Source of the DNA: a virus
Direction: 5' to 3' (one strand)
IMG/VR virus record: IMGVR_UViG_3300048835_000755
Span: 1 to 22,996 of that record
DNA length: 22,996 nt
Shown here one piece after another: positions 1,344 to 20,342 of the stretch. The first letter of the stretch is position 1. Each line of letters starts with the position of its first letter. The notes under the pieces were generated by a model. It searched no databases, was not told the DNA's origin, and worked only from the letters and a program-made list of their open reading frames with translations. Made by a program: the position numbers and the translations under genes.

Positions 1344-2888
1344 ATGGCCGCGCCAATCAGCCTACCTTCGATCCGCTTAAGCAGCAATTGGCTGCCGTCC
1401 GATCTCGCTAACCTTAGTTGGTGGAGCAAGGCCGATGGTAACGTTTACACCACGTATAACGGCAGCACGCAATGCGTGAACGATGACCGAGTGGGCTACC
1501 TTGAGGACTTGAGCGGGAATGCCATGCACGGCATTCAGGGCACTGGCAGTAGTGGAGCGGCGAGTGCACTTGACCAAAACAAGCCTGTATTCAAGTCTGA
1601 TGTCTTTCGCAATCGCCCCGGCATATTTTTTGATAATTCTGCGGCTGCCGCTACGTCGAATCAATTCCTCAATCTGCAAAAAGCGATGTACAATGGCGTG
1701 ACGGAATTTACCATTGCCATCGTACTGTCATTTGCGGCTGCTTCCGGCAGCAGCAGGCTAGCCCTCGGTGCAGGTTCGACCAATCTAAGTGGATTGCGAT
1801 TGCTCAATGCGGGAGCGGCAAATTACTTGGCACCAACTGGCAGCACCCAGCTAACTGATGCGATAACTGGTGTCGTCAGTTGGGGTTCTCTACCCAATCC
1901 ACTCGCATTGGTGTGTGTTGTGCGAGGCAAGGCCGGCACGGGCCTGCAAATGTACGTAAACGGCGTTTTGACTGCATCCGAGTCTTGGGCAAGCGGGGCA
2001 ATCAGCCACAACCACGTATGGCTGCTTGGTAATAGCAACGCCACCAATAGTTCTACGGCTATTACCCCAGCCACTAACACCACGCGATACCACGGCTACT
2101 TTCATGAGGGGCTGTGTTGTGCGGGTCGCTACGTAACCGACGCGGAACTAGGTCATCTGCATCGCTACTTGTTCCGCCGCTGGCCTTTCATGCTCCCCAG
2201 TCTGGTATCGCCTAACATTGTTCCACCCACAGGTCACGTCCAGGGAGTCGCGAGCGATCGGCTGGGGAATTACTACGTGTCCCACACTTCGCGACTTGAG
2301 AAATACAACAGCGCGTGGACGTTACAAGCGACCAACACCGATCCATTCGCCGGTTTGGCGGCCGGATTGGATCACGTAGGAGATATAGGCTGGTTTGACG
2401 GTGAATTATTCGCCACTCCATCGATAGGTGGAGTTGGTAGCGGTAAAGAGCCGACGATTGCGGTTTACGATGACACCACGCTTGCCTTGGTTCGATCTCG
2501 AAATGTAAGTGACGATATTGCCGGAATCCACCTACCCGGAATCGCAGTTGCGCCGGAGATCAACAGGCTGTTTTCGACGGATTATTACGGTGATGCGTCT
2601 GATCTGTTCGAGTGGCGATTAGATGATCTGAGTTTCGTTGGGACCATTACTTTGTCTACGCCGCTGGCCAATGCTCAAGGCATGACCTACAAGCACCCGT
2701 ACATTTATTTCAGCCTGGGAAGCGATTCGGGAATCTATCGCTGTTATCCTGACGGCAGTGGAGTAGAGCAGGTGTCGTTGGGGTATTCGACGGTGCAGGG
2801 CCTTGGATTTGATCCCACAAACAACGACTTATTGCTCTGCCGCAATTCCTCGGCTAACGACCGCGTTTGGAGATACAAACCGTTATGA
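1344..2888 (+). CDS. LamG-like plus beta-propeller protein, probable virion adsorption protein
   Basis: The gene encodes 514 residues and begins directly at the preceding stop (TGA then ATG). Residues ~20-280 look like a concanavalin A/LamG jelly-roll: LSWWSKADG near the start, VGYLEDLSGNAMHG, RPGIFFDNS, FTIAIVLSF, LQMYVNGVLTAS and a final YHGYFHEGLCCAGRYVTDAELG.LHRYL, the usual end of phage LamG domains. From ~295 the chain has about five repeated blade-like units (GHVQGVASDRLGNYYVS, HVGDIGWFDGELFATPS, LPGIAVAPEINRLFSTDYYG, ANAQGMTYKHPYIYFSLG, VQGLGFDPTNNDLLLCR), each hydrophobic-strand rich, as in six-bladed propellers. Such domains bind or cleave surface carbohydrate. Placement before the terminase suggests a receptor-binding or baseplate accessory part. 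No catalytic residues can be assigned. Confidence 0.65.
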   Translation: MAAPISLPSIRLSSNWLPSDLANLSWWSKADGNVYTTYNGSTQCVNDDRVGYLEDLSGNAMHGIQGTGSSGAASALDQNKPVFKSDVFRNRPGIFFDNSAAAATSNQFLNLQKAMYNGVTEFTIAIVLSFAAASGSSRLALGAGSTNLSGLRLLNAGAANYLAPTGSTQLTDAITGVVSWGSLPNPLALVCVVRGKAGTGLQMYVNGVLTASESWASGAISHNHVWLLGNSNATNSSTAITPATNTTRYHGYFHEGLCCAGRYVTDAELGHLHRYLFRRWPFMLPSLVSPNIVPPTGHVQGVASDRLGNYYVSHTSRLEKYNSAWTLQATNTDPFAGLAAGLDHVGDIGWFDGELFATPSIGGVGSGKEPTIAVYDDTTLALVRSRNVSDDIAGIHLPGIAVAPEINRLFSTDYYGDASDLFEWRLDDLSFVGTITLSTPLANAQGMTYKHPYIYFSLGSDSGIYRCYPDGSGVEQVSLGYSTVQGLGFDPTNNDLLLCRNSSANDRVWRYKPL

Positions 2889-3742
2889 TAATTTCCGGCT
2901 ACACTTACCGCGAAGCCTTGCCACCCGTTTACGACGAAGATGGCGAGCTTGCCGCACTGGACGAAACACCTACACTTACCTTCGTCCGCAACGGCGTTCC
3001 CGACCCGAGTGTGATACCCACGCTAGTTACGGTTTCAACGGGGCTGTACGTGGTTGAGGCCGTCGTTACCGGCACGGCCGGTCAGTCCGTATACTGTTTC
3101 GCCACACTCTTAGATAGTGACCCGGTAGTGGTTGTCTTGCCAACGCGGATCATTGGCGACTTGGCTTCGGCGACGTCCCAGCAGCTCATCGCCGCTGAAA
3201 TTGCCGAGATAAAGGCGAAGACCATTAATCTGCCTGCCGATCCCGCGAGCGAAACCTTACTTTTAGCACTCGGAATAATGCTCAGTGGGCTCCCCGATTC
3301 GATCGATGAGCTGCTAACGGAGGAGCATGGCTCGGGGCCGTGGGTCACCGGCGAACTTCAGGTGGCGATAACGCCGATCACTTCGACCGTCTCACCGGGC
3401 GAAGTCAGCAAGTCCGAACTGATCGCGTATCAGCACGCGCCGTTTAGCTTTACCTTCGCCATCGTTTACAGCGGAGTCGTTCCGCCGACGCCGATCAACA
3501 TGGCGGGCCACACGCTCCAATTTGTAGTCTACAAAGTGATCGGCACGAACTTGATCGAACTTACCACTTCCAACGGCGTAACGATCAGCGGAGCATCAAA
3601 CAACATCGTTACCGTGGAGGGCGCAAACACGCTCACCGCGCAGGCCGGCGAGTATCGCTTCAACGTGCGCGATCAAACCGCCGGCGGCGTAGTGCGAGCG
3701 CGTGGTTCATTTAAAATCGAGGCCGAAAATAAAGCGGCGTAA
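2885..3742 (+). CDS. beta-rich structural protein with BppU-like C-terminal domain
   Basis: I chose ATG 2885 because it overlaps the preceding stop (ATGA); a further in-frame start at 2867 lies inside the previous gene. The protein has 285 residues. Residues 1-85 form an Ig-like sandwich (GYTYREALPPVYDEDGE, PTLTFVRNG, GLYVVEAVV). Residues ~95-150 are helical (LASATSQQLIAAEIAEIKAK). Residues ~165-280 resemble the N-terminal fold of phage baseplate upper proteins: FSFTFAIVYSG, INMAGHTLQFVVYKV, VEGANTLTAQAGEYRFNVRD. Known BppU-type domains anchor receptor-binding proteins to the tail tip. With the LamG-propeller gene just upstream, the pair may form an adsorption unit. Similarity is judged by eye only. 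Confidence 0.55.
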   Translation: MIISGYTYREALPPVYDEDGELAALDETPTLTFVRNGVPDPSVIPTLVTVSTGLYVVEAVVTGTAGQSVYCFATLLDSDPVVVVLPTRIIGDLASATSQQLIAAEIAEIKAKTINLPADPASETLLLALGIMLSGLPDSIDELLTEEHGSGPWVTGELQVAITPITSTVSPGEVSKSELIAYQHAPFSFTFAIVYSGVVPPTPINMAGHTLQFVVYKVIGTNLIELTTSNGVTISGASNNIVTVEGANTLTAQAGEYRFNVRDQTAGGVVRARGSFKIEAENKAA

Positions 3743-3744
3743 CC

Positions 3745-3906
3745 ATGATGCACCACCTGCCAAAATGGCGGCCCAACAAACTTGAAACCACGCGTTTGCG
3801 CCATGGTTTTTGGGTCCTCCCAGAGGGGGCACTGCCGAAAGGTTTCCCACCCCCCGCTCGCGCGTTTGAGACACAGTCCGTCCGTCCGGGGAATTGGACA
3901 CATTGA
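3745..3906 (+). CDS. small ORF of 53 residues
   Basis: ATG at 3745 (or 3748) lies two bases after the preceding stop, and the frame closes at TGA 3904-3906. The peptide starts MMHHLPKWRPNKLETTRLRH and continues FWVLPEGALPKGFPPPARAF. It is Pro, Arg and aromatic rich with no membrane segment. No clear Shine-Dalgarno is present, so translation may depend on coupling to the upstream gene. It is immediately followed by a strong hairpin (3918-3952). I do not recognise the family. The same GC-rich DNA (about 3806-3862) could instead be a cis-acting packaging or regulatory segment, so this call is tentative. Confidence 0.35.
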   Translation: MMHHLPKWRPNKLETTRLRHGFWVLPEGALPKGFPPPARAFETQSVRPGNWTH

Positions 3907-3917
3907 GCCAAATAGGC

Positions 3918-3952
3918 GGGCGGCAACCGATGGACAAGATCGGCTGCCGCCC
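3918..3952. promoter_or_regulatory. strong hairpin upstream of methyltransferase
   Basis: Arms GGGCGGCAACCGAT (3918-3931) and ATCGGCTGCCGCCC (3939-3952) pair over 14 positions with one A-C mismatch, around a 7-base loop. No T-run follows on either strand, so it is not a typical intrinsic terminator. It lies 11 bases after the small ORF and about 60 before the methyltransferase start. It could be a transcript-stabilising or attenuating hairpin or part of a packaging site. Confidence 0.6.
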
Positions 3953-3961
3953 TAAGCACGA

Positions 3962-3980
3962 CGACGTGGGTAAGACGTCG
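3962..3980. promoter_or_regulatory. second short hairpin upstream of methyltransferase
   Basis: CGACGT (3962-3967) and ACGTCG (3975-3980) are exact inverted copies with a 7-base loop. The hairpin follows the larger one by nine bases. The leader between 3907 and 4011 therefore carries two stacked hairpins and no convincing gene. Confidence 0.4.
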
Positions 3981-4011
3981 CCTAACCTGCGAAAAGCTAG
4001 GTCACGGCGAC

Positions 4012-5349
4012 ATGGAAGTCAGAGATCGGATCAAAGAATTGCGGCGCGTCCGCGGACGCGACCTCCGAACCAATCCGCACAAATGGCGCAAGCATCCCAA
4101 ATCGCAGGCTGCGGCGCTCACAGGGGCCTTGGAGGAAATCGGCTATGCTGGGGCCGTCCTGGCACGCGAGCTCGCAGACGGCTCGCTGGAGCTATTGGAC
4201 GGGCATTTGCGGGCGGAGCTAACGCCCGACGCGTTGGTGCCAGTTTTGGTGCTCGACGTCGACGACGCCGAGGCCAAGAAACTGATCGCGACTTTCGATC
4301 CACTGGGAGCGATGGCCACGATCGGTGCCGTCGAGCTCGAGGCACTGTTAAAAGAGGTGGAGACGGGCAACGAGGCGCTAAAAAAGATGCTGGCGGATCT
4401 AGCTAAGGAGGCAGAGAAACTATTGCCGCGCGAAGTTGCGGAGGATGCGGTGCCCGATTTGCCGCAGAATCCGATTACCAACTCCGGCGATTTGTGGTTA
4501 CTAGGTCGACACAAATTGCTCTGCGGCGATGCAACTGTTGGTAAAAACGTCGCCCGGCTGTTCGGCGGCGATTTGGCAGCGATGGTGTTCACCGATCCAC
4601 CGTACAACGTCGGTTACGTCGGCAAAACAAGCAAGCAGCTGACAATTCAAAATGACAGCATGTCGCATGATAGCTTTGGCGAGTTTCTGCAAAACGCGTT
4701 CGATGCGATGGCTGCCGGAGTGCGGCCGGGCGGCGCGATTTACGTATGTCATGCCGACTCGGAAGGACTCAACTTCAGACGCGCGATGCGGGAGGCGGGA
4801 TGGCTGTTAAAGCAATGTTTGATTTGGGTAAAGAACGCCCACGTGCTCGGTCGGCAAGACTACCAGTGGAAGCACGAGCCGATCTTGTATGGCTGGAAGC
4901 CTGGGGCCGCGCATCAATTCTATGGCGGTCGCCGGCAGACCACCATCATCGACGGCCGCTGTGGCGTGGAGGTCGAGCAGGATGGCGAGTCGATCCTGCT
5001 GACGATCACCGATGGCAAGGAGACGATCGTACTTCGAGTGCCAGCTTACGAAGTGGTGGAACACTTCGGCGACGAGGGCCAAACGTTGTGGCACTTCGAT
5101 CGACCGGCGCGCAATGCCGACCATCCAACGATGAAGCCTGTCGGCCTGCCCGCGCGTGCGATTCGCAACTCATCGTTGCCGGGCGAGATCGTGCTCGATT
5201 CATTTCTCGGTTCAGGTGCGACCCTCAGCGCCGCCGAGCAGATGGACCGCCGCTGCTATGGGTTGGAGTTGGATCCAAAGTACTGTGACGTGATCGTGGA
5301 GCGTTGGGAGAACCTGACGGGACAAAAAGCAACACGCGAAACTCCATAG
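4012..5349 (+). CDS. ParB-domain-containing DNA adenine/cytosine methyltransferase
   Basis: The protein has 445 residues. The N-terminal ~100 residues are a ParB/Srx-like nuclease domain with the signature LELLDGHLRAEL (residues 59-70). A helical linker follows to ~145. The methylase domain begins near NSGDLWLLGRHKLLCGDA (157-174). Motif IV is DPPY at 195-198, followed by the region QDYQWKHEPILYGWK (282-296), HPTMKPV at 371-377, and the SAM-binding motif DSFLGSGAT (396-404). Motif IV before motif I is the beta-class order, usual for N6-adenine or N4-cytosine amino-methylation. Between YGGRRQTTI and LWHFDRPARN there is a ~45-residue beta-rich segment. Phages carry such orphan methylases near terminase to protect DNA from restriction or mark it for packaging. 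Only 9 bases separate it from terL. Base specificity is unknown. The Shine-Dalgarno is weak. Confidence 0.88.
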   Translation: MEVRDRIKELRRVRGRDLRTNPHKWRKHPKSQAAALTGALEEIGYAGAVLARELADGSLELLDGHLRAELTPDALVPVLVLDVDDAEAKKLIATFDPLGAMATIGAVELEALLKEVETGNEALKKMLADLAKEAEKLLPREVAEDAVPDLPQNPITNSGDLWLLGRHKLLCGDATVGKNVARLFGGDLAAMVFTDPPYNVGYVGKTSKQLTIQNDSMSHDSFGEFLQNAFDAMAAGVRPGGAIYVCHADSEGLNFRRAMREAGWLLKQCLIWVKNAHVLGRQDYQWKHEPILYGWKPGAAHQFYGGRRQTTIIDGRCGVEVEQDGESILLTITDGKETIVLRVPAYEVVEHFGDEGQTLWHFDRPARNADHPTMKPVGLPARAIRNSSLPGEIVLDSFLGSGATLSAAEQMDRRCYGLELDPKYCDVIVERWENLTGQKATRETP

Positions 5350-5358
5350 CAAATCTCA

Positions 5359-7566
5359 ATGGCAAACTTCGACGATCTCCGAAGCAAGTCCGATGAGCTG
5401 CGGAAAACCCTGAGATCGATCGACCAAATGACAGGCCGAGACGACGAACGGGAACGGGACGCGGAGCGCAAGCAGCAAAAGCGCGAAGCCAAGCGTTTGG
5501 TGGTCATTCCACCGTGCGCTAATCGCGAACGACGTGAACGGCTCGAGGCCGACGATATTGCCTGGTTGATGCACTACTTCGGCACGAATTCCGAAGTCGA
5601 AGATCCGTACTGGTACGAGTTCACCGCGCAGCAGCGCGAGATGGCAGAGGCGATCGCCAGCGTGTTCCACCATGGCGGCGACCAGGCAATTGCCGCCAGT
5701 CGCGGCGAGGGAAAGACCACGCTGTTTGAGCGACTTGGGATCAAATACATTTTGCAGGGCAAGTTGAGCTTCCTGGTCATCGGTGCAGCCACCGGACCGT
5801 TGGCGCAAAACTCGCTCGATACCATCCGGAGCGCCTTCGAAGAAAACCCGCTGCTGTTGGCCGATTACCCCGAAGCATGCTTTCCGGTGCATAGCCTCGA
5901 GGGCATCGCCCAACGTGCCGGCTCGCAGCTAGTTTCCGGCCACCGCCACGATACCGGTGAGCCATTCACTAAGGCCAAAAGCAAGTTCCGTTGGAAAGGC
6001 AACGAGATTTACTTGCCCAACGTGCCAGGCTCACCCTCGGCACGCGCGATCATTGCCACTCGCGGACTCGATACGGCGATACGCGGCCTCAAAAAGCGTG
6101 GTCGCCGGCCGCAGGTTGTGGCGATCGACGATCCCGACACGCCGTCCACCGTGGCAAACAGCGACATGGCGACGGCGTTGGAAAATCGGATCGAATCCGA
6201 CATCGGCGGTTTGGGTACCCAACAACTGGCGGTCGGTCGGATCATGTTAACGACGCTACAATCCCGTAGTGGCGGCGTGTCGTATCGCTACACCGACCCA
6301 AAACAAAAACCATCATTTCGCGGCAAGCGCTATCGCTTTTTGCTGCACGCGCCCGAACGCACGGATCTGTGGGAAGAGTACGTCCGAATTCGCCACGAGG
6401 AGCAGCGAGCGCTGGCCGCCGGCGATTCGGAGGACGAGCACTGCCGAAAGTCGCACGCGTTCTACCTTGCGAATCGGGAAGCAATGGACGCGGGCGCGAT
6501 TGTGGCCAACCCTAATCGCTTCAACTCCAAGGTTTTGCCCGATGGCACGCAAGTCGAGGTGTCATCGCTCCAGCGCTATTACAACGAAGTGGCACGGCTT
6601 GGAGCCGTGGCGGTGGCCACCGAGTATGACAACGATCCTCCGGAGGAAACCGGGCCGGTGGAAAGCGGCATCACCCCCCACCGCATCCAGCGGCAGCTCA
6701 GTGGTTACGCGCGGCGGTTGATCGCGCCAGGATGCACCGTGCTGGTGCAAGGGATTGACGTGCGCAAGGTGGCGCTGCATTGTGTCGTGCGCGCGTTTCG
6801 GCCCGACGCAACGGCCTTCACTATCGATTATGGCGTGCATGAAGTACTTGGTACCACGTACGGCAGCGAAGAAGGCCTGGAAGTTGCGATTGAAAAAGCG
6901 ATTCTGTCGCGGATTGAAGAGACGAAGTCCACCGCGTACAAGACGATCGACGGCAAGCTAATGGAAGTGAACCTGACTTTGATCGATGCGGGCTGGCAAA
7001 CGAATGCGGTTTACTCGGCTTGCAAAAAGGCAGGCCTCGGCGTGATGCCAATCATGGGCTTCGGCCGATCCGCTGGTTGTGTCAAAACCAACTTTACCGA
7101 GGCCCAGAGCACCACACCCAACCGCAAGCCTGGTGACGGGTGGTTCATGTCCAAGCAAGGCAAGCCGCGCAGCCGCGTTTGGCTAGTGTGCGCCGACGCC
7201 GATCGGTGGAAGCGTTACGAACACGATCGCTGGTTGACGTCGCCGGCGCGCCCTGGGTGCAACATGCTATTCGGCGAGCCATCGGGCGTCGAGCAGTTGA
7301 GTGCCGATGAAAAGATGCACCACAGTTACGCGCATCACGTTTGCAACGAAGTCGAAGAAGAATCGGTGGTCAAAGGCAAACTCGTGCGCAATTTCAGAGC
7401 GAAAAGTGACAACGTGCATTACATGGACGCAAGTTATTACACCGACGTGGGCGCGAACATGCTTGGCATTCGGTTGTTGAGCGAGGCCACCGCCAGCGAG
7501 GCGCAACCGCCGGCTGCCGGCGGATGGTTCGACGCACAAAAAAGTTCCAAGAGGAGGGCTGGCTGA
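5359..7566 (+). CDS. terL: terminase large subunit
   Basis: The protein has 735 residues. It is the ATP-driven DNA packaging motor and nuclease that docks on the portal. The ATPase domain carries a Walker A-like ASRGEGKTT (113-121) and Walker B VVAIDDPD (253-260), with an ILTTLQSRSG-like coupling motif just after (about 294-305). The C-terminal RNase H-like nuclease domain shows acidic residues at GIDVRK (D467), LIDAGWQTNAVY (D543) and NVHYMDASYY (D690), the usual metal-binding triad. A charged ~50-residue coiled N-terminus precedes the motor. Length is typical of GpA-type terminases. No recognisable small subunit lies beside it; the methyltransferase occupies that place. The next gene starts on the stop codon (TGATG). 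Confidence 0.92.
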   Translation: MANFDDLRSKSDELRKTLRSIDQMTGRDDERERDAERKQQKREAKRLVVIPPCANRERRERLEADDIAWLMHYFGTNSEVEDPYWYEFTAQQREMAEAIASVFHHGGDQAIAASRGEGKTTLFERLGIKYILQGKLSFLVIGAATGPLAQNSLDTIRSAFEENPLLLADYPEACFPVHSLEGIAQRAGSQLVSGHRHDTGEPFTKAKSKFRWKGNEIYLPNVPGSPSARAIIATRGLDTAIRGLKKRGRRPQVVAIDDPDTPSTVANSDMATALENRIESDIGGLGTQQLAVGRIMLTTLQSRSGGVSYRYTDPKQKPSFRGKRYRFLLHAPERTDLWEEYVRIRHEEQRALAAGDSEDEHCRKSHAFYLANREAMDAGAIVANPNRFNSKVLPDGTQVEVSSLQRYYNEVARLGAVAVATEYDNDPPEETGPVESGITPHRIQRQLSGYARRLIAPGCTVLVQGIDVRKVALHCVVRAFRPDATAFTIDYGVHEVLGTTYGSEEGLEVAIEKAILSRIEETKSTAYKTIDGKLMEVNLTLIDAGWQTNAVYSACKKAGLGVMPIMGFGRSAGCVKTNFTEAQSTTPNRKPGDGWFMSKQGKPRSRVWLVCADADRWKRYEHDRWLTSPARPGCNMLFGEPSGVEQLSADEKMHHSYAHHVCNEVEEESVVKGKLVRNFRAKSDNVHYMDASYYTDVGANMLGIRLLSEATASEAQPPAAGGWFDAQKSSKRRAG

Positions 7567-7964
7567 TGTTGCTGGATAAATGTGACGGTCCGCCCTGCCC
7601 GCGATGTGGCTGCCAAGATGTCAAGATCTTGGTCGAACCGCGACCGGCTGCCGCGCCGGCGGCTTTCAGTGGTGTTGAGCCATCGCGTCAAGCGCCGACT
7701 CAGTGGTGGCCGACGGGCCGTGCGCAATGCAATCACTGCCGCACGCGCTTTTCGTTTCGCGAGGTCGCGCCAACCATCGACGCCGAACCGGAGCTACCCG
7801 AGGAGAGCGAGCCGCAGCCATCCGCCCAACCGGCCGCACCCACGAAATGTCCCCAGTGCGCTGGCAGCCGCTTTTATGTTTACCGGACAAAAGGAGCCAT
7901 TCAATATCGCAAATGCAAGGACTGCAAACACCTGGGCGAAAACAAGACGATCAAGGGCCCTTGA
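7566..7964 (+). CDS. double zinc-ribbon protein
   Basis: ATG 7566 overlaps the terL stop (TGATG) and has AGGAGG at about 7551-7556; the longer open frame upstream lies within terL. The 132 residues hold two zinc-ribbon units: CPRCGC with CNHC about 45 residues later, and CPQC with CKDC after SRFYVYRTKGAIQYRK. They are joined by an acidic, Pro-rich linker (EPELPEESEPQPSAQP). Zinc ribbons of this type bind nucleic acid or protein partners. Coupling to terL suggests a role in packaging or late transcription, but none is shown. A strong terminator follows at 8011. Confidence 0.75.
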   Translation: MLLDKCDGPPCPRCGCQDVKILVEPRPAAAPAAFSGVEPSRQAPTQWWPTGRAQCNHCRTRFSFREVAPTIDAEPELPEESEPQPSAQPAAPTKCPQCAGSRFYVYRTKGAIQYRKCKDCKHLGENKTIKGP

Positions 7965-8010
7965 GCAAATGGCCAGGTGCAATTAAAATCGACGGTGCGA
8001 GAACACCTGA

Positions 8011-8688: not shown

Positions 8689-8973
8689 ATGAGTCTCGCC
8701 GATCTCAACTCGCTGTATGCCACCGCCGCGGCCGCCATGGACGTGGGCGACTGGGATGCCGCGATTGCGGCCCTAATGAAGATGCAGGTGCGATTAGCGG
8801 CCACCCCTAACTTGTCGCGATCGCTCGCCGGCGGCGGCAATCAGTCGATCGGTTGGAATCCCGGCGACTTGAACAACCTGATTGCCCAATGCCGCAAACA
8901 ACAAACCGCCGCCCGCTTTAGCGCCGGCGGCCTGACTCAAACTCGCATCGTTTACTCGCGACCCACCGGATGA
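8689..8973 (+). CDS. gpW-like head-tail joining protein
   Basis: The protein has 94 residues. Lambda gpW and its relatives are small helical proteins encoded just before the portal that help seal the filled head. Here the N-terminal half is helical (SLADLNSLYATAAAAMDVGD, WDAAIAALMKMQVRL) and the end is basic (LNNLIAQCRKQQTAARF). The portal ATG overlaps the stop (ATGA at 8970). No Shine-Dalgarno precedes ATG 8689, so initiation may be leaderless-like or coupled to an upstream frame ending at 8692. Position and size support the call more than sequence. Confidence 0.6.
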   Translation: MSLADLNSLYATAAAAMDVGDWDAAIAALMKMQVRLAATPNLSRSLAGGGNQSIGWNPGDLNNLIAQCRKQQTAARFSAGGLTQTRIVYSRPTG

Positions 8974-10496
8974 TCTACACCGAACACATCGTGAGCTCGT
9001 TTTCGGAGGCCGCGGCCACGCCCGCTGCTGCCGTGGAGGACGTGCGCGTCGCGACGCAGTACGAGACGGTGCCCGAGTGGATGGGGCAAACCGGCCAACG
9101 TTCTTGGGATGCCGCCGAAACCAATCGACTCAATCAATCGCATTGGGAAATGGCCCGCGACGAGGACATCAACCTTTGGCTGCGGGCCCAACTGCCGACG
9201 CTGCGAGCTCGCGCCATTCACGAGTTTCGCAATAATGGCATTTTGACCGGCGTGGGACAATCCCTGGTCGACGACGTGGTCGGTCCCGATGGCCCCATGC
9301 TCGAGGTTCAATCCGACGATAAAAATTACAATGCCGCCGCCGAAGAGATCTGGCGGCAATGGTTCGCGGCTCCGACCTTTCGCCCCAACGTGAGCGGCGC
9401 AAGTTGGCTCAAGTTGTGCGTGCGGAACCTTCCCAAGTGCGGCGAATTTCTCAGTGTGATTGCCACCGATCCTTACGCGGAGGGACCGGTGCAATTGCGA
9501 TTGCGGCCGCTACACCCGCGCCGCTTGGCTTCGCCCATGCACGTGGGCCAAAGCGATCGCCATATCATGGGCATCGAGTTCGATCAGTTCGATCGACCCG
9601 CGCGTTACTGGATCACCGAATCGGAGAGCCTGCGCACCAAGCACGTGCCGTATTCGCCCGACGACATCATTCACGAATTTGTCATCGACGAAGAGGGCCA
9701 GGCCCGCGGCTATCCGTGGATTGCGCCATCGTTACCGTCGATCGCGGATCTGCGCGACTTCGACGATCAGATCTTGGACGCATCGCGGCAGATGGCCGAC
9801 CAGTGCCAGTTGCTGTACACCGAACATCCGGATGCGCCGTTTTACGCGATGCCGGAATCGACGACGATCGAACGTCGCACGTGCAAGATGGCTCCACCTG
9901 GTTGGAAACCCGCCACGTACCAGGCCGCGTTGCCGCCAGTACAATATCCCGATTTTCGGGCGGAAAAGCATCGCGACATCGGGCGGCCGTTCAATATGCC
10001 GTTGATGATGGTGCGCCTCGACGCTTCGAATCACAACTATTCTTCGGCTCGGATTGACACCCAGAGTTACAACCGCACGTGCGAGGGAATTCAATGCTGG
10101 TTGAGCGGCACGCCCGAAAGCTGCGGCATGCTCAATCGCTTGGCCGATTTAGTGTTCCGAGAAGCAAGGTTTTCGGTGGCCGCGCTGAAGCGCCGCCCGG
10201 CCAAGGTGATCTATGTCTGGACGTGGCCGCAACGGCCGCACGTGGATCCAAGCAAAGAGGCCGATGCCGAGACGGCATCCCTCGAAACCGGCACGCTCGA
10301 TTTTATCACAGCCCTGCAAAATCGTGGCACCACCCTCGATCGCCACCTGAAATCACTCGTACGCGCAGTCGAGGCCTTCAAGGCCGCGGGACTGCCGCTC
10401 CCGGCGTGGGCGGCCGGCGTAGCACAAGCCGCGACACCAGATGCTCGCGCGGCCCGCCGCACCAACGAAAAGCTGGAGGCCGTCAATGCGTCATGA
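8970..10496 (+). CDS. portal protein, lambda GpB type
   Basis: The protein has 508 residues, close to the usual 500-550. The portal is the dodecameric ring at one capsid vertex through which terminase pumps DNA. Supporting segments include NLWLRAQLPTLRARAIHEFR followed by NNGILTGVGQSLVDDVVG near the N-terminus, W.QWF, CVRNLPKCGEFLSVI, VQLRLRPLHPRRLASP, DDIIHEFVIDEEGQARGYPW, then NYSSARIDTQSYNRTCEG in the C-terminal half; this resembles the lambda-family order, in which an N.SS.R segment lies late. It is coupled by ATGA to the gene before and overlaps the protease/capsid gene by 11 bases. Confidence 0.88.
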   Translation: MIYTEHIVSSFSEAAATPAAAVEDVRVATQYETVPEWMGQTGQRSWDAAETNRLNQSHWEMARDEDINLWLRAQLPTLRARAIHEFRNNGILTGVGQSLVDDVVGPDGPMLEVQSDDKNYNAAAEEIWRQWFAAPTFRPNVSGASWLKLCVRNLPKCGEFLSVIATDPYAEGPVQLRLRPLHPRRLASPMHVGQSDRHIMGIEFDQFDRPARYWITESESLRTKHVPYSPDDIIHEFVIDEEGQARGYPWIAPSLPSIADLRDFDDQILDASRQMADQCQLLYTEHPDAPFYAMPESTTIERRTCKMAPPGWKPATYQAALPPVQYPDFRAEKHRDIGRPFNMPLMMVRLDASNHNYSSARIDTQSYNRTCEGIQCWLSGTPESCGMLNRLADLVFREARFSVAALKRRPAKVIYVWTWPQRPHVDPSKEADAETASLETGTLDFITALQNRGTTLDRHLKSLVRAVEAFKAAGLPLPAWAAGVAQAATPDARAARRTNEKLEAVNAS

Positions 10497-12714
10497 GTTG
10501 CTGATGTACCGCGAAGACCAACAGCGCGACCTAACCGTGCGGTCGTTTTCCGTGCGCGCCGAGAGCATCGACGAAGCGACTCGCAGCGTCGAGACGATCA
10601 TCGCCACCGAAGATCCGGTCACCGTGTTCGACATGCGAACCTGGCAGCCGATCGACGAAGTGCTGCGAATGGACGGCGTCGAACTGCCCGCGCAGGTGCC
10701 GATGCTGGCGAATCACAATCGCTATTCGCTGGACTCGATCTATGGTTCGGCACGGCAGATGAAAATCAGCGGTGCCGAGATGTCGGGCCGGCTGTACTTT
10801 GCCGAGGGCGACGAAGACGCGGACCGCGCTTGGAACAAGGTGCGGCAAAAGCACATCAATTCGGTCAGCGCGGGTTACCGCGTCATCGAATACACCGACA
10901 TCGAGCCGGGGCAAACCGCCATCGTCAAGGGTCGTTCCTACACCGCAGGCCAACGTGTGTTGCGTATCACCACGCTTTGGGCACTGCGTGAAGTTTCACT
11001 CGTACCGATTGGTGCGGACCAACGGGCCAAGATTCGGGGCGACGTGCCCCATAACAAGGAGGTCATTTCTGTGAATCCCAAATTACGCAAATTTTTGGAG
11101 TCGTTGGGACTACGTGCCGAAGCCACCGAAGCCGAAGCACAAGCCTTCTACACCGCGTTGAGTGCCGAAGATCGCGGCCGTGCCGATGCGGCCGCTGCCG
11201 CGCCGGATGTTCAGCCCAACGAGGGACAACGAAACGATCCGCCGGCCATTCCGCCGGTTGCGCCTCCGAACGTGCCGCCGAATGCCAATGCCGACGCCGT
11301 GCGCCAGCAAATTCGGCAAGAGGAACTCGATCGCGTGCGCCAAATCAACGAATTGGCCGGCACCGACGTGCCGCGCGAATTGGTAACCCGTGCGCTCAAC
11401 GAGGGCTGGAATGTCGGCCGAGCCACCGCCGAGTTTTTGGGCGCAATCCGGGTAAGCCGCGGCCAACCTGGCCCAGGCCAATCCGGCCCGGCGATTCACT
11501 CGCACAGCCACGAGGCCTCGGCCACGGTGCGTGCGTTGGGCATGGGCCTAATGCTCCGCCAAGGTTACGACCCGATCGCCAACCTGGCGAACTTCGTTGA
11601 TGGCGTTTACAAACCCGTGCGCGACACCGAGCGTAACGAGGAGTTGCTCCGAGCCGCCGACGATGCCTGGCACTTCCGCGACATGTCGCTAGTCGATCTG
11701 TGCCGCGAAGCCTGCCGAATCGACTCCGGCCGTATCCCGACCAGTCGCCAAGAATGCATTCGCACGGCGATTTCAGGGTCGGCGCTGTCGGGAATTTTCA
11801 CGACCAATGTGTCGGCCGAGTTGATGGTCGGCTTTACCGACGCCGGCGATTCGACCATCGGGTGGTGCTCGGAGGCGGAAGTGCCGAACTTCCAAACCAA
11901 CGAACGGCACTCGACCGGTAAATTCGGCGCGCTCACCAAGCACAAGCGCGGAGGCAAGGCCGATCACCTGGCGACCGATTCGGGTAAGGAAGAGTACAAG
12001 ATCGCCCGCTACAGCGGTCAATTTGTGGTGGACGAAATGGACATCATCGACGATCGCTTGGGTGCGCTCGATCAGCTTTCGCCGAAAGACATCGGTTTGG
12101 CCGCACGCCAACTACGACCGAACATGGTGTACGCGATCTTGCTGGCTAACCCTGAATTGTCCGATGGCGGCGAGCTGTTCAATAGCACGGTGATCACGAC
12201 CGTGGGTGGCCATGCGAATCTCACCAGTGGAGCGCTCGCGGCGGATACGCTGCAAGCCGCCATCACGCTGATGAGCAAGCAGCGGCAGAAAAAGCGGCCG
12301 CTCAATCTTCGCGTGCGTTATGTCATCGTGCCGCAGGACCTGGCGTTCAAAATCAACATCTTGCTGACGTCGGCCGAGCGCTCGAACAACAGCGACCTCG
12401 GCACAAAAAACCCGCTGGCCGGAATGGGACTCGAATTTCGCGCCGACGATCGCATCGGCGTGGCCGGCGTGGTGGATCCCGACACGGGCAACTCCTACGC
12501 CGGTACCGCGACCAACTACTTCTTGGCCGCGCGACCGGGCGAAGAGGGCGCTCGCACGATCGAGGTCGGTTACCTGCGAGGCACGGGCCGCGCTCCGCAA
12601 ATGCGCAGCTCGATCCTCACGCAAGGCCAGTGGGGCATCGGCTGGGACATCAACATGGACATCGGGGCCAAGGCCCTCGGCTTCCAGGGCCTGGTCAAAT
12701 CGTCCGGCGGTTAA
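10486..12714 (+). CDS. prohead protease / major capsid protein fusion
   Basis: ATG 10486, with GGAGG at 10475-10479, gives 742 residues; an earlier in-frame ATG at 10441 lies inside the portal gene. Residues 1-185 form an HK97-type prohead protease: PMLANHNRYSLDSIYGSA with likely catalytic His77, NSVSAGY with Ser126/Ser128, and LREVSLVPIGAD with Glu169. Residues ~196-360 are charged and Pro-rich (PPAIPPVAPPNVPP) with helices (QEELDRVRQINELAGTDVP), suiting a scaffolding delta domain that is cleaved away. From ~365 to the end lies an HK97-fold capsid protein (NVSAELMVGFTDAGDST, RYSGQFVVDEMDIIDDR, RYVIVPQDLAF, NMDIGAKALGFQGLVK). Fused protease/capsid genes are a known arrangement. A perfect internal Shine-Dalgarno and GTG lie at the junction. 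Confidence 0.88.
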   Translation: MRHELLMYREDQQRDLTVRSFSVRAESIDEATRSVETIIATEDPVTVFDMRTWQPIDEVLRMDGVELPAQVPMLANHNRYSLDSIYGSARQMKISGAEMSGRLYFAEGDEDADRAWNKVRQKHINSVSAGYRVIEYTDIEPGQTAIVKGRSYTAGQRVLRITTLWALREVSLVPIGADQRAKIRGDVPHNKEVISVNPKLRKFLESLGLRAEATEAEAQAFYTALSAEDRGRADAAAAAPDVQPNEGQRNDPPAIPPVAPPNVPPNANADAVRQQIRQEELDRVRQINELAGTDVPRELVTRALNEGWNVGRATAEFLGAIRVSRGQPGPGQSGPAIHSHSHEASATVRALGMGLMLRQGYDPIANLANFVDGVYKPVRDTERNEELLRAADDAWHFRDMSLVDLCREACRIDSGRIPTSRQECIRTAISGSALSGIFTTNVSAELMVGFTDAGDSTIGWCSEAEVPNFQTNERHSTGKFGALTKHKRGGKADHLATDSGKEEYKIARYSGQFVVDEMDIIDDRLGALDQLSPKDIGLAARQLRPNMVYAILLANPELSDGGELFNSTVITTVGGHANLTSGALAADTLQAAITLMSKQRQKKRPLNLRVRYVIVPQDLAFKINILLTSAERSNNSDLGTKNPLAGMGLEFRADDRIGVAGVVDPDTGNSYAGTATNYFLAARPGEEGARTIEVGYLRGTGRAPQMRSSILTQGQWGIGWDINMDIGAKALGFQGLVKSSGG
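11056..11073 (+). promoter_or_regulatory. internal ribosome binding site and GTG start inside protease/capsid gene
   Basis: AAGGAGGT at 11056-11063 is a full Shine-Dalgarno, followed after seven bases by GTG at 11071. The GTG is in frame (codon 196, VNPKLRKFLE...), exactly between the protease fold and the scaffold/capsid part. Initiation there would give a 547-residue capsid precursor without protease. Confidence 0.65.
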
Positions 12715-12786: not shown

Positions 12787-13755
12787 ATGACTGCCACCAT
12801 GGTCAACGACGACCAAACCGTGCGCGTCACTGCGCCGGCGGCGGGTTTTGCCGCGGGCCAAGTGCTGCAATTAGCGGATGGCCGCGCGGCCGTTATCGCC
12901 AGCCTCAAAAACCTGACCGCCGGCGACGTGGTCGGCGCGCAGGTTGCCGGCAAGGTCGCCATCGCCAAAACGGCCAGCATCGCGCTGCTCGATGGTGGCG
13001 AAGTGTTTTTGGACCATTCGACGGGCCTGGCCCACTTCAAAAAGGTCAACGATCGTGACTTCTCGCTGGGTGTGGCCGTGGGCGACGCGGCCGCCAGCGC
13101 CAGCGAAGTGGTGGTCGATCTCAACGTCAAACCGCACTGGCTGATCGACTTGCTCCGCGATCCGCTAATGAGCGTGGTCGTCGGCACGCAAGCCCTTGGC
13201 GGGTTGTTGCCGGCACAAATGCGAGGCGGCTCGCTGGATCTCAAGATTACCGCCACCAATGAGGCCCAAAAAGTCGACGCCCTGTCCGTCGACGGCTTTG
13301 GAGCCGCGGCGAAGGCGATCGCCCGCTTCGTGCTGCGTCTGCCAAACGGCGGATCGGGCAGTGCCAGCGACTTTAATTTCGGCTTGGCCGACGACACGCA
13401 CGCCAGCAACGCCGACACGATCGCCAACTCGATCTTTTTCCACCTCGACGGTGGCAGCACCAACATCAACGCGCAAAGCGACGACAACACGGCGCATGCC
13501 GTGGCGGCCACCGACACCACCGCCGACTTCACCGCTGGCGTGGCCGTGGCCAACCGCGTGGAATTGTGGATCGACAAGCGCGATCCCGCCGACGTGGCGT
13601 TCTACGTCGAGGGCGTGCGGGTGCTGTCCGGCACCACGTTCGATGTCTCGGCATTCGCCGGGACGTGGAAGCTGCTGGCCCACCTGGAGAAAACGAGCGG
13701 GACCGAAACGGCCGACGCGATCGTCGACGCCGCCGCGGTCCGCATCCTCGAGTAA
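12787..13755 (+). CDS. capsid decoration protein: DUF2190-like N-terminus plus C-terminal jelly-roll
   Basis: The protein has 322 residues. Residues 1-115 resemble the DUF2190 family commonly encoded next to phage capsid genes: VRVTAPAAGFAAGQVLQLAD, DVVGAQVAGKVAIAKT, LLDGGEVFLDHSTGLAHF, FSLGVAVGDAAASASEVVVD. A short linker (PHWLIDLLRDPLMSVVVGTQ) follows, then ~150 residues of beta-rich LamG-like sequence (FVLRLPNGGSGSASDFNFGL, SIFFHLDGGSTNINAQS, RVELWIDKRDPADVAFYVEG, TWKLLAHLEKTSGTE). The likely role is to stabilise or coat the capsid and display a carbohydrate-binding head. CGGAG at about 12774 serves as ribosome site; an 8-T run lies 27 bases before the start. A palindrome copy follows 7 bases after the stop. 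Confidence 0.7.
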   Translation: MTATMVNDDQTVRVTAPAAGFAAGQVLQLADGRAAVIASLKNLTAGDVVGAQVAGKVAIAKTASIALLDGGEVFLDHSTGLAHFKKVNDRDFSLGVAVGDAAASASEVVVDLNVKPHWLIDLLRDPLMSVVVGTQALGGLLPAQMRGGSLDLKITATNEAQKVDALSVDGFGAAAKAIARFVLRLPNGGSGSASDFNFGLADDTHASNADTIANSIFFHLDGGSTNINAQSDDNTAHAVAATDTTADFTAGVAVANRVELWIDKRDPADVAFYVEGVRVLSGTTFDVSAFAGTWKLLAHLEKTSGTETADAIVDAAAVRILE

Positions 13756-17235: not shown

Positions 17236-19560
17236 ATGTCACAATCGGATATTCGCGCCGGGCGGGCCTACGTGGAACTGGCATTGCGCGATTCGGAGTT
17301 CGTACGTGGGCTGAGTCGCGCGCACCAACGCCTGAGAGACTTTGGCGCAAGCGCCACGGCCATCGGGTCGAACATGGTCAAGCTGGCCGTGTTGTTTTCG
17401 CTCCCATTCTTGGGCGCGATCAAGGCCGCGTCGACTCTCGAAGAGACGATGAACAAGTTCAACGTCGTCTTCGCGGGGAACGCGGCGGCGGTCAAGGTGT
17501 GGGGCGACGAATTCGCCGCCCAGGTCGGTCGGTCGAAGCGGCAAATCGCCGAATTCATGGGCAACTCGCAAGACCTGTTTGTCCCGTTGGGTTTCGACGC
17601 CGCATCGGCAACCGAGTTGAGCAAGACCATCACCGGGCTTTCCATCGATTTGGCGTCGTTCAACAACAAGGCCGACGCCGACGTGCTGCGCGATCTTCAC
17701 GCCGCGTTGACCGGTTCGGGCGAAGTGATGAAGAAGTACGGCGTGATAGTGAGCGAAGCCGCCGTCAAGCAAGAGTTGCTCAATATGGGACTCGACCCGG
17801 CGACGGTCACCGAACGCGAAAAGGTGCAGGCCCGGCTGAATATTATCCTACGCGGCACCACGGCCGCCCAGGGCGATGCCGAGCGCTCTTCGGATGCGTT
17901 CGCCAATCAAATGAAACGGCTAGAGGGGGAGATTGAGAACGCCGCCGGCATTATCGGAGGAGCGTTACTGCCGGCGGCCGCCGAATACGTGGGGCAGGTT
18001 GCGGAAGTGGTGCAGGCCGTAGCCGAATGGGTTTCGCTCAATCAGGAATTGGTCGTTATCGGGGCCAAGGTGGTGGCCGTGGTAGGCGGCATGGGTTTTG
18101 GTCTCATTGCGCTGGGTGGCACGATCAGTGCCGTCGGCAGCGCTTTGGGGGTCGCAGTCAACGCAGTTCGCGCCTTCAATGCGGCGTGTCTTTTCTTCGC
18201 GCTAAACCCCATCGTTCCCGCCATTATCGCCGTGGCCGTGGCCGCCGGCGGGGCCGCGCTGGCCATTCACGAACTGACGACGCACACGGCAAAACTGACC
18301 GAGGCCCAGGAGAAATTGCGCGAGGCGGGCGACAAGCAGCGCGCTACCGACCAGCTCACGATGGAGCGATTGCAGCAACTGCACCAGCAGCAAAGCCGGA
18401 GCAACGAGGAAACGCAAGAAGCCAGAGACCTGATTGACCAGTTGCAAAAGCGCTACGGCGATTTGGGGCTGTCCATTGATGAAGCGACCGGCAGAATTGT
18501 CGGCATGACCGAGGCCCAGCAGCGGCTCAATGCCGCCATGCGAGATGCAGCCGTTGCCGAAGTTGAAGCGGAACTTTCGGAGGTCCGCAACAACATCGAA
18601 GAGTTGACCAAGCAAATGGACGGTCAAGCGGACTGGGAAGAATGGACCGGTGGCCGGTTTGGCACCACCGAAGCTCTCGAGAAAAGCTTTCGGCAATTGA
18701 TGGTGCTGGAAAAAAAGCGGGATGCTTTAAAAAAACGGCACGCCGCGCTGGGAATGGGCGACGAAGACGCACTCACGGGCGGGGCCAAACCAGATGATCT
18801 AGCCGAGCGCGTCGCCGACGAGAACGCCAAACGTGAGCGCGAAAAACTCGAGCTGCGGCAAAAGGCCGAAGACGCCACCAAGCGCCTCGCGGAGTTGGAC
18901 GAAGATGCCGCCGCCAAAAAACGCGATGCGCTCGATTCAGAACTAAAAGCCATTCAAGACATCACCGCCGAACGGTTGCGGTTGCTCGACGTGCTAATCG
19001 CGGAGGAAAAGCTGCGCGACCCGGAATCAAAGCAAATCGAAGTGCTGGAGCGCAACAAGAAACAGGCTATCGAGGCCGGGCGAATCGACGAAGAGGCCGC
19101 GATGCAGCGGCATGAAGACGAGAAGATCAAGGCGGACGAAGAAGAGTGGGCGCGGAAGACCGCTGCCGAGCGCGCATTAAGCGACGAAATCGCGCGGATG
19201 GAGATCGACGCCGACAAAAAACTTTCCGCCGAACAAAAATCCCAAAAGAAGCGGCAACTCGACCGAGAACGCGCGTTGGAAGATGCCAAGGAGCAAGGAC
19301 TCGACCCGGCACTCATCAACCGGCAGCACGACTTGATCAATCAGTTGGCCAAGCAGGCCGAACCGGCGGAGCCGACGCAGTCACGAATCTTCGGCACCTA
19401 TTCGGCCGCAGCCCTGGCCGCGCACTCTCAGGGTGGCGGCAAGGATCCCGCCAAGGACATGGTCGAAAAGCAGAAGGAAGGCAACGATCTGCAGGCGGAA
19501 AACAAACTGCTGCTCGCCGACATCTTACTGGAACTGCGGCAGGGAGGAGCTCTGGCCTGA
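17236..19560 (+). CDS. tail tape measure protein
   Basis: The protein has 774 residues and is the longest tail gene, set between the chaperone and distal tail genes as in siphoviruses. Residues ~60-240 resemble the TP901-type tape measure domain (STLEETMNKFNVVFAGNAAA, LSKTITGLSIDLASFNNKAD, GEVMKKYGVIVSEAAVKQEL, DAFANQMKRLEGEIENAAGI). Hydrophobic Gly/Ala stretches at ~270-303 and ~317-344 (PIVPAIIAVAVAAGGAALAI) could insert in the membrane during DNA entry. From ~345 to 710 it is a long charged coiled coil (EKLREAGDKQRATDQ, DEEEWARKTAAERALSDEIA). At roughly 0.15 nm per residue, a tail of about 110-120 nm would be expected. The ribosome site is poor, consistent with low expression. Confidence 0.85.
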   Translation: MSQSDIRAGRAYVELALRDSEFVRGLSRAHQRLRDFGASATAIGSNMVKLAVLFSLPFLGAIKAASTLEETMNKFNVVFAGNAAAVKVWGDEFAAQVGRSKRQIAEFMGNSQDLFVPLGFDAASATELSKTITGLSIDLASFNNKADADVLRDLHAALTGSGEVMKKYGVIVSEAAVKQELLNMGLDPATVTEREKVQARLNIILRGTTAAQGDAERSSDAFANQMKRLEGEIENAAGIIGGALLPAAAEYVGQVAEVVQAVAEWVSLNQELVVIGAKVVAVVGGMGFGLIALGGTISAVGSALGVAVNAVRAFNAACLFFALNPIVPAIIAVAVAAGGAALAIHELTTHTAKLTEAQEKLREAGDKQRATDQLTMERLQQLHQQQSRSNEETQEARDLIDQLQKRYGDLGLSIDEATGRIVGMTEAQQRLNAAMRDAAVAEVEAELSEVRNNIEELTKQMDGQADWEEWTGGRFGTTEALEKSFRQLMVLEKKRDALKKRHAALGMGDEDALTGGAKPDDLAERVADENAKREREKLELRQKAEDATKRLAELDEDAAAKKRDALDSELKAIQDITAERLRLLDVLIAEEKLRDPESKQIEVLERNKKQAIEAGRIDEEAAMQRHEDEKIKADEEEWARKTAAERALSDEIARMEIDADKKLSAEQKSQKKRQLDRERALEDAKEQGLDPALINRQHDLINQLAKQAEPAEPTQSRIFGTYSAAALAAHSQGGGKDPAKDMVEKQKEGNDLQAENKLLLADILLELRQGGALA

Positions 19561-20342
19561 TGCTGTTCGACGAACGACCCCATGGACGCACTTTCGACGC
19601 CAACGCCGCGACGGCTTCGCGCCTGTACTTTTGCAGTGGCGAGCAAAACGAAGCCATTGTGTACGCCCTCGCCTCCGCATCCATTCCGCCATTCGTGACG
19701 ACTCCCATTGGCCTGCTCTATCGTCAGCCCATCCAATTGCGAGAGACGGGCCATGCTCTGTTCGATATCACGGCCCCGTACGGCCGCAGAAAGCGCGAGG
19801 TCGGCAGCTCGTCGTTTAGCTTTGACACCGGCGGCGCAACGGTAAACGTTAAGGTGGCCAAACAGCATCTCGCCTCGTACCCAATCGACGGAGATCTACA
19901 CAAAGGTGCGATCGGAGTCAAAGCGGACGGGACCGTCGAAGGTGCCGACATGATCATTCCCGCGTGTCGGATGATGTACACGTTTCGGCACCCGCTCGGC
20001 CAAATCGGCGAGTACCAAGCCGTGACGTTGGCACGCGCCACCGGCAAAACCAACGCCAACACGTTTCGCGGGTTCGCCGCCGGCGAACTGCTGTTTGCCG
20101 GTGCATCGGGTTCGGACGGCACTGAGTCGGAAGCCGAGCTCACTTACAACATAATCGCCAGCGAAAACGCGACAATCACCATGGGAGATATCGCCGGAAT
20201 TGTTAAACCCGGACACGCGTACGCCTGGGCCGAGTTTGAAAACGAAATAGCTGGCGGCGCGCCTGTGGTACGCCCGAAGGCGGTCCACGTCGAAATTGTA
20301 TATGGGTCGATCGACTTCGCATCCGTCTTCGGTTGGAGCTAA
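19560..20342 (+). CDS. distal tail protein of unknown function
   Basis: ATG 19560 shares its A with the tape measure stop (TGATG) and has GGGAGGAG at about 19543-19550; the open frame upstream lies inside the tape measure gene. The product has 260 residues: FDERPHGRTFDANAATASRL, then YFCSGEQNEAIVYALASASI, RQPIQLRETGHALFDITAPY, FSFDTGGATVNVKVAKQHLA, and the end VVRPKAVHVEIVYGSIDFAS. It is mainly beta with few helices. A protein placed between tape measure and fibre is often a distal tail or hub component. No family motif is recognised. Confidence 0.6.
   Translation: MLFDERPHGRTFDANAATASRLYFCSGEQNEAIVYALASASIPPFVTTPIGLLYRQPIQLRETGHALFDITAPYGRRKREVGSSSFSFDTGGATVNVKVAKQHLASYPIDGDLHKGAIGVKADGTVEGADMIIPACRMMYTFRHPLGQIGEYQAVTLARATGKTNANTFRGFAAGELLFAGASGSDGTESEAELTYNIIASENATITMGDIAGIVKPGHAYAWAEFENEIAGGAPVVRPKAVHVEIVYGSIDFASVFGWS

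Follow-up and report, generated by a model that had tools for sequence, protein, structure and literature searches.

How can a phage that encodes its prohead protease and its major capsid protein in a single gene make the two in the proportions that a capsid calls for? One shell takes hundreds of capsid subunits but only a few proteases, and it would be crowded if every subunit carried one. The question is raised by a viral stretch of DNA, 22,996 bases long and recorded in IMG/VR (the window), in which a single reading frame runs through protease, scaffold and capsid, and in which an earlier note had pointed to a ribosome-binding site lying inside that frame. Fusions of this kind are already described (PMC8508860, PMC7302621, PMC6536676, PMC8601537), in the accessible parts of these papers as one gene and one protein and with an internal start unmentioned. 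The features concerned, all on the + strand, are the following.

10475 to 10479, +: Shine-Dalgarno (SD) sequence GGAGG for the full-length product, 6 nt upstream of ATG 10486, energy -8.6
10486 to 12714, +: full-length gene of 742 aa, prohead protease, scaffold and HK97-fold major capsid protein, assigned by profile matches
10528 to 11010, +: prohead protease domain, about residues 15-175, model pLDDT about 92
11011 to 11070, +: disordered linker, residues 176-195, bearing the putative internal ribosome site, pLDDT below 50 at 176-194
11056 to 11063, +: internal SD AAGGAGGT, read from the sequence
11064 to 11070, +: spacer CATTTCT, 7 nt, read from the sequence
11071 to 11073, +: putative internal start codon GTG, codon 196 of the ORF 10486-12714
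11071 to 12714, +: predicted nested in-frame gene with GTG start, scaffold plus major capsid precursor, 547 aa, assigned by the conserved homologous start
11071 to 11655, +: scaffold (delta-like) region, approximately residues 196-390, helical, with helices from 198 in the model
11656 to 12711, +: major capsid protein domain, HK97 fold, about residues 391-742, assigned by PF25209 and Foldseek

The full-length gene starts at ATG 10486, before the portal gene (8970-10496) has ended, and the calculated masses of the 742- and 547-residue products are 80.95 and 58.8 kDa. Its protein matches the profile NF045541 (scaf_prot_MCP2) with E 2.2e-86 over positions 1-633 of 634, spanning protease, scaffold and capsid, at a score of 290.8 bits that lies below the curated NCBI cut-off of 525; judged by this match, the gene is of the NF045541 architecture, as a diverged relative outside the curated set. 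Further matches were obtained to PHROG 4523 (E 6e-76), to Phage_capsid_4 (E 2e-25) and, at residues 431-739, to PF25209 (91 bits vs a cut-off of 27). Foldseek with a structure model built from 36 homologues gave capsid matches at E 1e-9, which together with PF25209 identify an HK97-fold capsid protein; this fold search of the model returned capsids only and no protease match, and a sequence search of the PDB found nothing beyond distant Mu gpT-like capsids. On the protease side, the S78/HK97-type profiles remained under their cut-offs (PF04586, 15.4 vs 21; TIGR01543, 26.7 vs 59), the latter as a weak match at residues 70-184 with E 5e-6, and H77, S128 and E169 are invariant across the 36 homologues, the serine and histidine being candidate catalytic residues. 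Since the modelled protease reaches to about residue 175, the linker occupies residues 176-194 and the first scaffold helix begins at 198, codon 196 falls at the domain border, precisely where the earlier note had placed it. Both the length and the sequence of this linker differ among homologues.

Around the site the window reads ...CCCCATAACAAGGAGGTCATTTCTGTGAATCCC..., and the full SD, the 7-base spacer and the GTG are exactly as first described, the latter being in frame as codon 196 of the 742-aa ORF because (11071-10486)/3 = 195. The pattern AAGGAGGT-N7-RTG has a single exact occurrence in the window. When ribosome-site strength was scored by a simple anti-SD duplex energy, GTG 11071 reached -10.9 kcal/mol. 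None of the other in-frame ATG/GTG/TTG codons in the ORF (61 in all) scored as well, and among the 1,362 ATG/GTG of both strands of the window it ranked third, outscored by ATG 7566 and ATG 19560 alone. These two look like real gene starts, each gene overlapping the upstream stop; the former opens the gene for a 132-aa CxxC-rich, zinc-ribbon-like protein directly after the terminase gene (7566-7964) and the latter a short gene (19560-20342). Moreover, AAGGAGGT pairs 8/8 with the 16S tail CACCUCCUUU of planctomycete genomes carrying related prophages, the canonical tail CACCTCCTTT being present in six of the seven family-carrying planctomycete genomes searched. The internal SD is unpaired in the centroid RNA fold, and RNA structure around the site is unremarkable (z -1.0). 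With a good SD in front of each, both ATG 10486 and GTG 11071 look usable as starts.

The window alone would nevertheless not settle the matter, since the encoded residues account for the site in part: 16% of the synonymous shuffles that keep the encoded K-E-V-I-S-V recreate it. Statistics from a single window were consequently rejected as proof, given this figure and the fact that pattern matches with up to one mismatch are not rare (0.41 expected by chance in the window). The same shuffles lend some weight to a reading in which the fusion is the only product and cleaves itself at the linker, the SD being a by-product of charged Lys-Glu codons. Such a reading also accords with the disorder and Lys-Glu content of the linker, and with the database record of Lactococcus phage c2, whose capsid protein is processed to a mature N-terminus at codon 206. 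It is the homologues that settle the site.

In this regard, 258 fused genes were gathered from viral contigs, phages and planctomycete genomes and reduced at 85% identity to 144 clusters, made up of 69 from the group of the window, 62 from a second S78-type group and 13 of ClpP type, with the border taken to be the 60 codons that follow where the protease HMM ends, without regard to SD or start. An in-frame ATG was found at the border in 136 of the 144 non-redundant genes. Starts with an SD energy of -5 or lower occurred at the border in 92% of the clusters, in comparison with 37% for other in-frame windows and 17% for other frames; at -6 or lower the values were 69%, 18% and, for the other two frames, 9%. 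Likewise, the top interior SD start falls at the border in 71/144 genes where 10.5 are expected. These sequences share descent, so that P values overstate their independence and the argument rests on effect sizes.

A cleaner view is given by the 95 genes with a single in-frame ATG at the border, which were used because they involve no selection by SD strength. Their mean SD energy was -6.8, vs -2.2 at 1,767 other in-frame ATGs, with bases -12 to -8 reading G-A-G-G-A and an SD core located 4-9 nt upstream in 77% of the borders as against 1.2% of the control ATGs. Protein-preserving synonymous shuffles averaged -5.0, and the real sequence was stronger in 80 of the 95 genes, so that codon choice at the border is, by this comparison of sequences, biased towards an SD beyond what the protein requires. 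This bias speaks against a fusion-only product, as do the conservation of the start codon itself and the presence in c2 of an SD-ATG at codon 131, ahead of the processed end; we regard self-cleavage of a sole product as very unlikely.

A border SD might, on the other hand, act by slowing ribosomes to let the protease fold ahead of capsid synthesis, with no initiation at all, and its position exactly between two domains would suit such a role. SD cores lacking an in-frame start are, however, no denser at the border than elsewhere (3.81 vs 3.78 per kb), whereas those followed by one are enriched about 18-fold (9.72 vs 0.55 per kb), and a properly spaced ATG/GTG is conserved. As the excess appears only when a start follows, a pausing signal is disfavoured, to the point that we give it hardly any credence.

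Conservation extends to the codon. In 33 close relatives aligned on the LRxYL motif, the border codon is ATG in 26, GTG in five and another codon in two, and other valine codons never occur. Among the ClpP-type genes, all 13 clusters carry an ATG 19 codons past the protease end, preceded at 9 nt by GAGGA, AGGAG or a core resembling these. Some homologues (L017, L097, L098, L122 and L165) have a weak or absent border SD; as far as comparison of sequences goes, the three fused groups as a rule have both an SD and a start there. The comparison that the earlier note had proposed, whether homologues conserve the SD and start at synonymous sites or keep the protein while losing them, thus came out in favour of conservation, and the second pattern is not the rule.

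Further evidence comes from relatives in which the two parts are separate genes. In L082, L083 and L095 a protease and a capsid gene are joined by a 4-nt ATGA overlap (at L082:3594, L083:3376 and L095:639) with AGGAG upstream, and the capsid gene starts at exactly the position homologous to the window GTG: the capsid N-termini are MNKRLLSYLRSVGL (L082), MNPRLIAYLRSLGL (L083) and MNPRLLAYLRSIGL (L095), vs VNPKLRKFLESLGL at the window GTG. All remaining close relatives in which both domains were detected are fused. A sequencing error behind the split state was considered and rejected, the three contigs coming from different metagenomes, being 53-61% identical and sharing the same ATGA join. To judge from these gene starts, the homologous site in split phages necessarily starts the capsid precursor. 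In the capsid tree, L082, L083 and L095 form a clade nested in a larger, supported one to which eight fused genes belong as well, and FP_Epona and Dulem virus 34, whose separate capsid proteins measure 530 and 513 aa, make up another split group independent of the first, so that the split state arises at least twice on the tree.

The existence of split relatives with the same site, and their appearance at least twice, could also be taken to mean that the SD is a relic, the old site of a once separate capsid gene that was passively kept after a recent fusion and is now unused. Against this, the site is kept in fused genes that differ in more than 60% of their residues, in three fused groups and amid a freely varying linker, and codon choice favours the SD. 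Moreover, the fusion is not simply recent, given that the split clade sits within a clade holding fused genes. We consider a relic very improbable.

Conservation of SD and start in the homologues, together with split relatives that start their capsid gene at the same place, indicates that the border site very probably functions as a genuine internal start, giving the 547-residue scaffold-capsid precursor, which upholds the interpretation first put forward; the nested product, described then as a capsid precursor, does comprise 547 residues from the GTG and is refined here to scaffold plus capsid. Dual initiation, with the 742-aa fusion and the 547-aa precursor made from one reading frame, is accordingly a prediction from sequence, and one that we hold to be highly probable. 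Ribosomes starting at ATG 10486 would make the protease-scaffold-capsid fusion, and those starting at GTG 11071 would make the scaffold-capsid precursor only, from which most of the shell would be built. The fusion would be the rarer product and would join the procapsid by means of its own capsid domain, carrying the protease inside, and after assembly the protease would cut away the scaffold and itself. We infer initiation at GTG 11071 from the sequence; the product ratio, the assembly of the fusion into the shell as a minor component and the subsequent loss of scaffold and protease are predicted by analogy with lambda, Mu and HK97. Since both products should lose the scaffold as the particle matures, mature virions would be blind to the internal start, and this removal may be the reason why it has gone unreported.

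The principle has clear precedents. As in the window, lambda C/Nu3 shows the order portal, protease and decoration, and an in-frame nested start at the protease/scaffold border with a shared 3' end; in lambda, nesting yields scaffold alone and the major capsid protein E has a gene to itself, whereas the nested ORF of the window comprises scaffold and capsid. Within lambda C (L299, lambda 2800-8000), the top interior start by anti-SD energy is codon 309 (AGGAGG, -10.5), the annotated Nu3 start at codon 239 being weaker (-6.9). Mu I/Z also has an in-frame nested start with an SD (AACAGGAGAACAAACCC-ATG), from which the scaffold gpZ begins MNETLRKLLARLGV, but the capsid gene T of Mu is separate, with a 4-nt overlap with the end of I/Z, whereas the capsid domain of the window lies inside the nested ORF. 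The window gene therefore fits the in-frame nested protease/scaffold type in its internal start and ribosome site at the border and its shared 3' end, and departs from the scaffold-only form of lambda and Mu in that its nested ORF includes the capsid domain. Alignment with hhalign sets residue 1 of Mu gpZ on residue 196 of the window protein, over 32 columns only and with a probability of 9%, and the scaffold start resembles PHROG 328 in 8/12 members and PF10123 in 3/12, matches that support a kinship of the scaffold start with Mu-type proteases. Taken together, the gpZ alignment and this kinship suggest that the nested start may predate the fusion with the capsid gene. Herpesviruses offer a parallel in UL26/UL26.5, where a protease-scaffold precursor is accompanied by a 3'-coterminal, more abundant protease-free product; there, the shorter product is translated from a nested transcript of its own and contains no capsid protein.

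Other fusions share with the window gene the combination of protease, scaffold and capsid in one gene, including those of the NF045541 (MCP2), NF045540 (ClpP-like, MCP1) and PHROG 4523/133 families and the known fusion phages MD8, F10, mEp043, RcKemmy, Gifsy-2 and small actinophages, most of which show a border SD-start by sequence. In Gifsy-2 the SD and start at codon 221 are its best. The distant fusion of c2, gene l5 (L289), has an SD and ATG at its own protease/scaffold border at codon 131 (AAAGGAGAACAAGAACAA-ATG, at the junction of protease and coiled coil), upstream of the mature N-terminus, and that of Rhodococcus phage RRH1, Orf7, has the same at codon 274. None of the database records examined annotates a nested CDS in a fused gene, and no internal start in a fused capsid gene was found described in the full-text, open-licence literature, where older work in subscription journals, for instance on c2, may be missed. 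Lambda C/Nu3 and Mu I/Z already provide known cases of in-frame nesting at the protease/scaffold border, and the novelty first claimed for nested initiation accordingly narrows: what appears to be new, as far as open-licence literature shows, is a family-wide internal start in protease-scaffold-capsid fusions.

As for its bearer, the window has a head block in lambda-like order, with a gpA-type terminase, a lambda-family portal, the fused gene and a decoration-like gene. The latter (12787-13755, 322 aa) matches PHROG 122 (head decoration) over its first 114 residues only and continues in a long C-terminal extension, and a DNA methylase (N6_N4_Mtase, E 1e-29) is encoded upstream of the terminase gene at 4012-5349. 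Among cellular sequences, the nearest relative found belongs to a Phycisphaerales genome, and the fused family occurs in 61 of the 392 genomes sampled from that phylum, which makes a planctomycete the likely host on grounds of sequence kinship. One fused-family match in a genome of the same phylum (G150:C179:9778-10446) has four in-frame TGA codons and may be decayed or recoded.

Altogether, a conserved internal start would resolve the stoichiometry problem of fused genes, as it would permit far more shell protein than protease, and it would give most of the fused-gene genomes examined a further major structural protein that their annotation lacks. The fusion subunit built into the shell lattice is predicted to be the route by which the protease is delivered. 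Fused and split relatives sharing one start offer a natural series for studying the fusion and separation of overlapping genes. We would put at about even the chances that internal initiation is general in fusion phages (S78-type, ClpP-type, c2 and small actinophages), in which case the capsid precursor would be the nested product, the annotated fusion would be a minor shell subunit bringing the protease through its own capsid domain, and the site, common to Mu I/Z, would be older than the fusion and would allow passage between the fused and split states.
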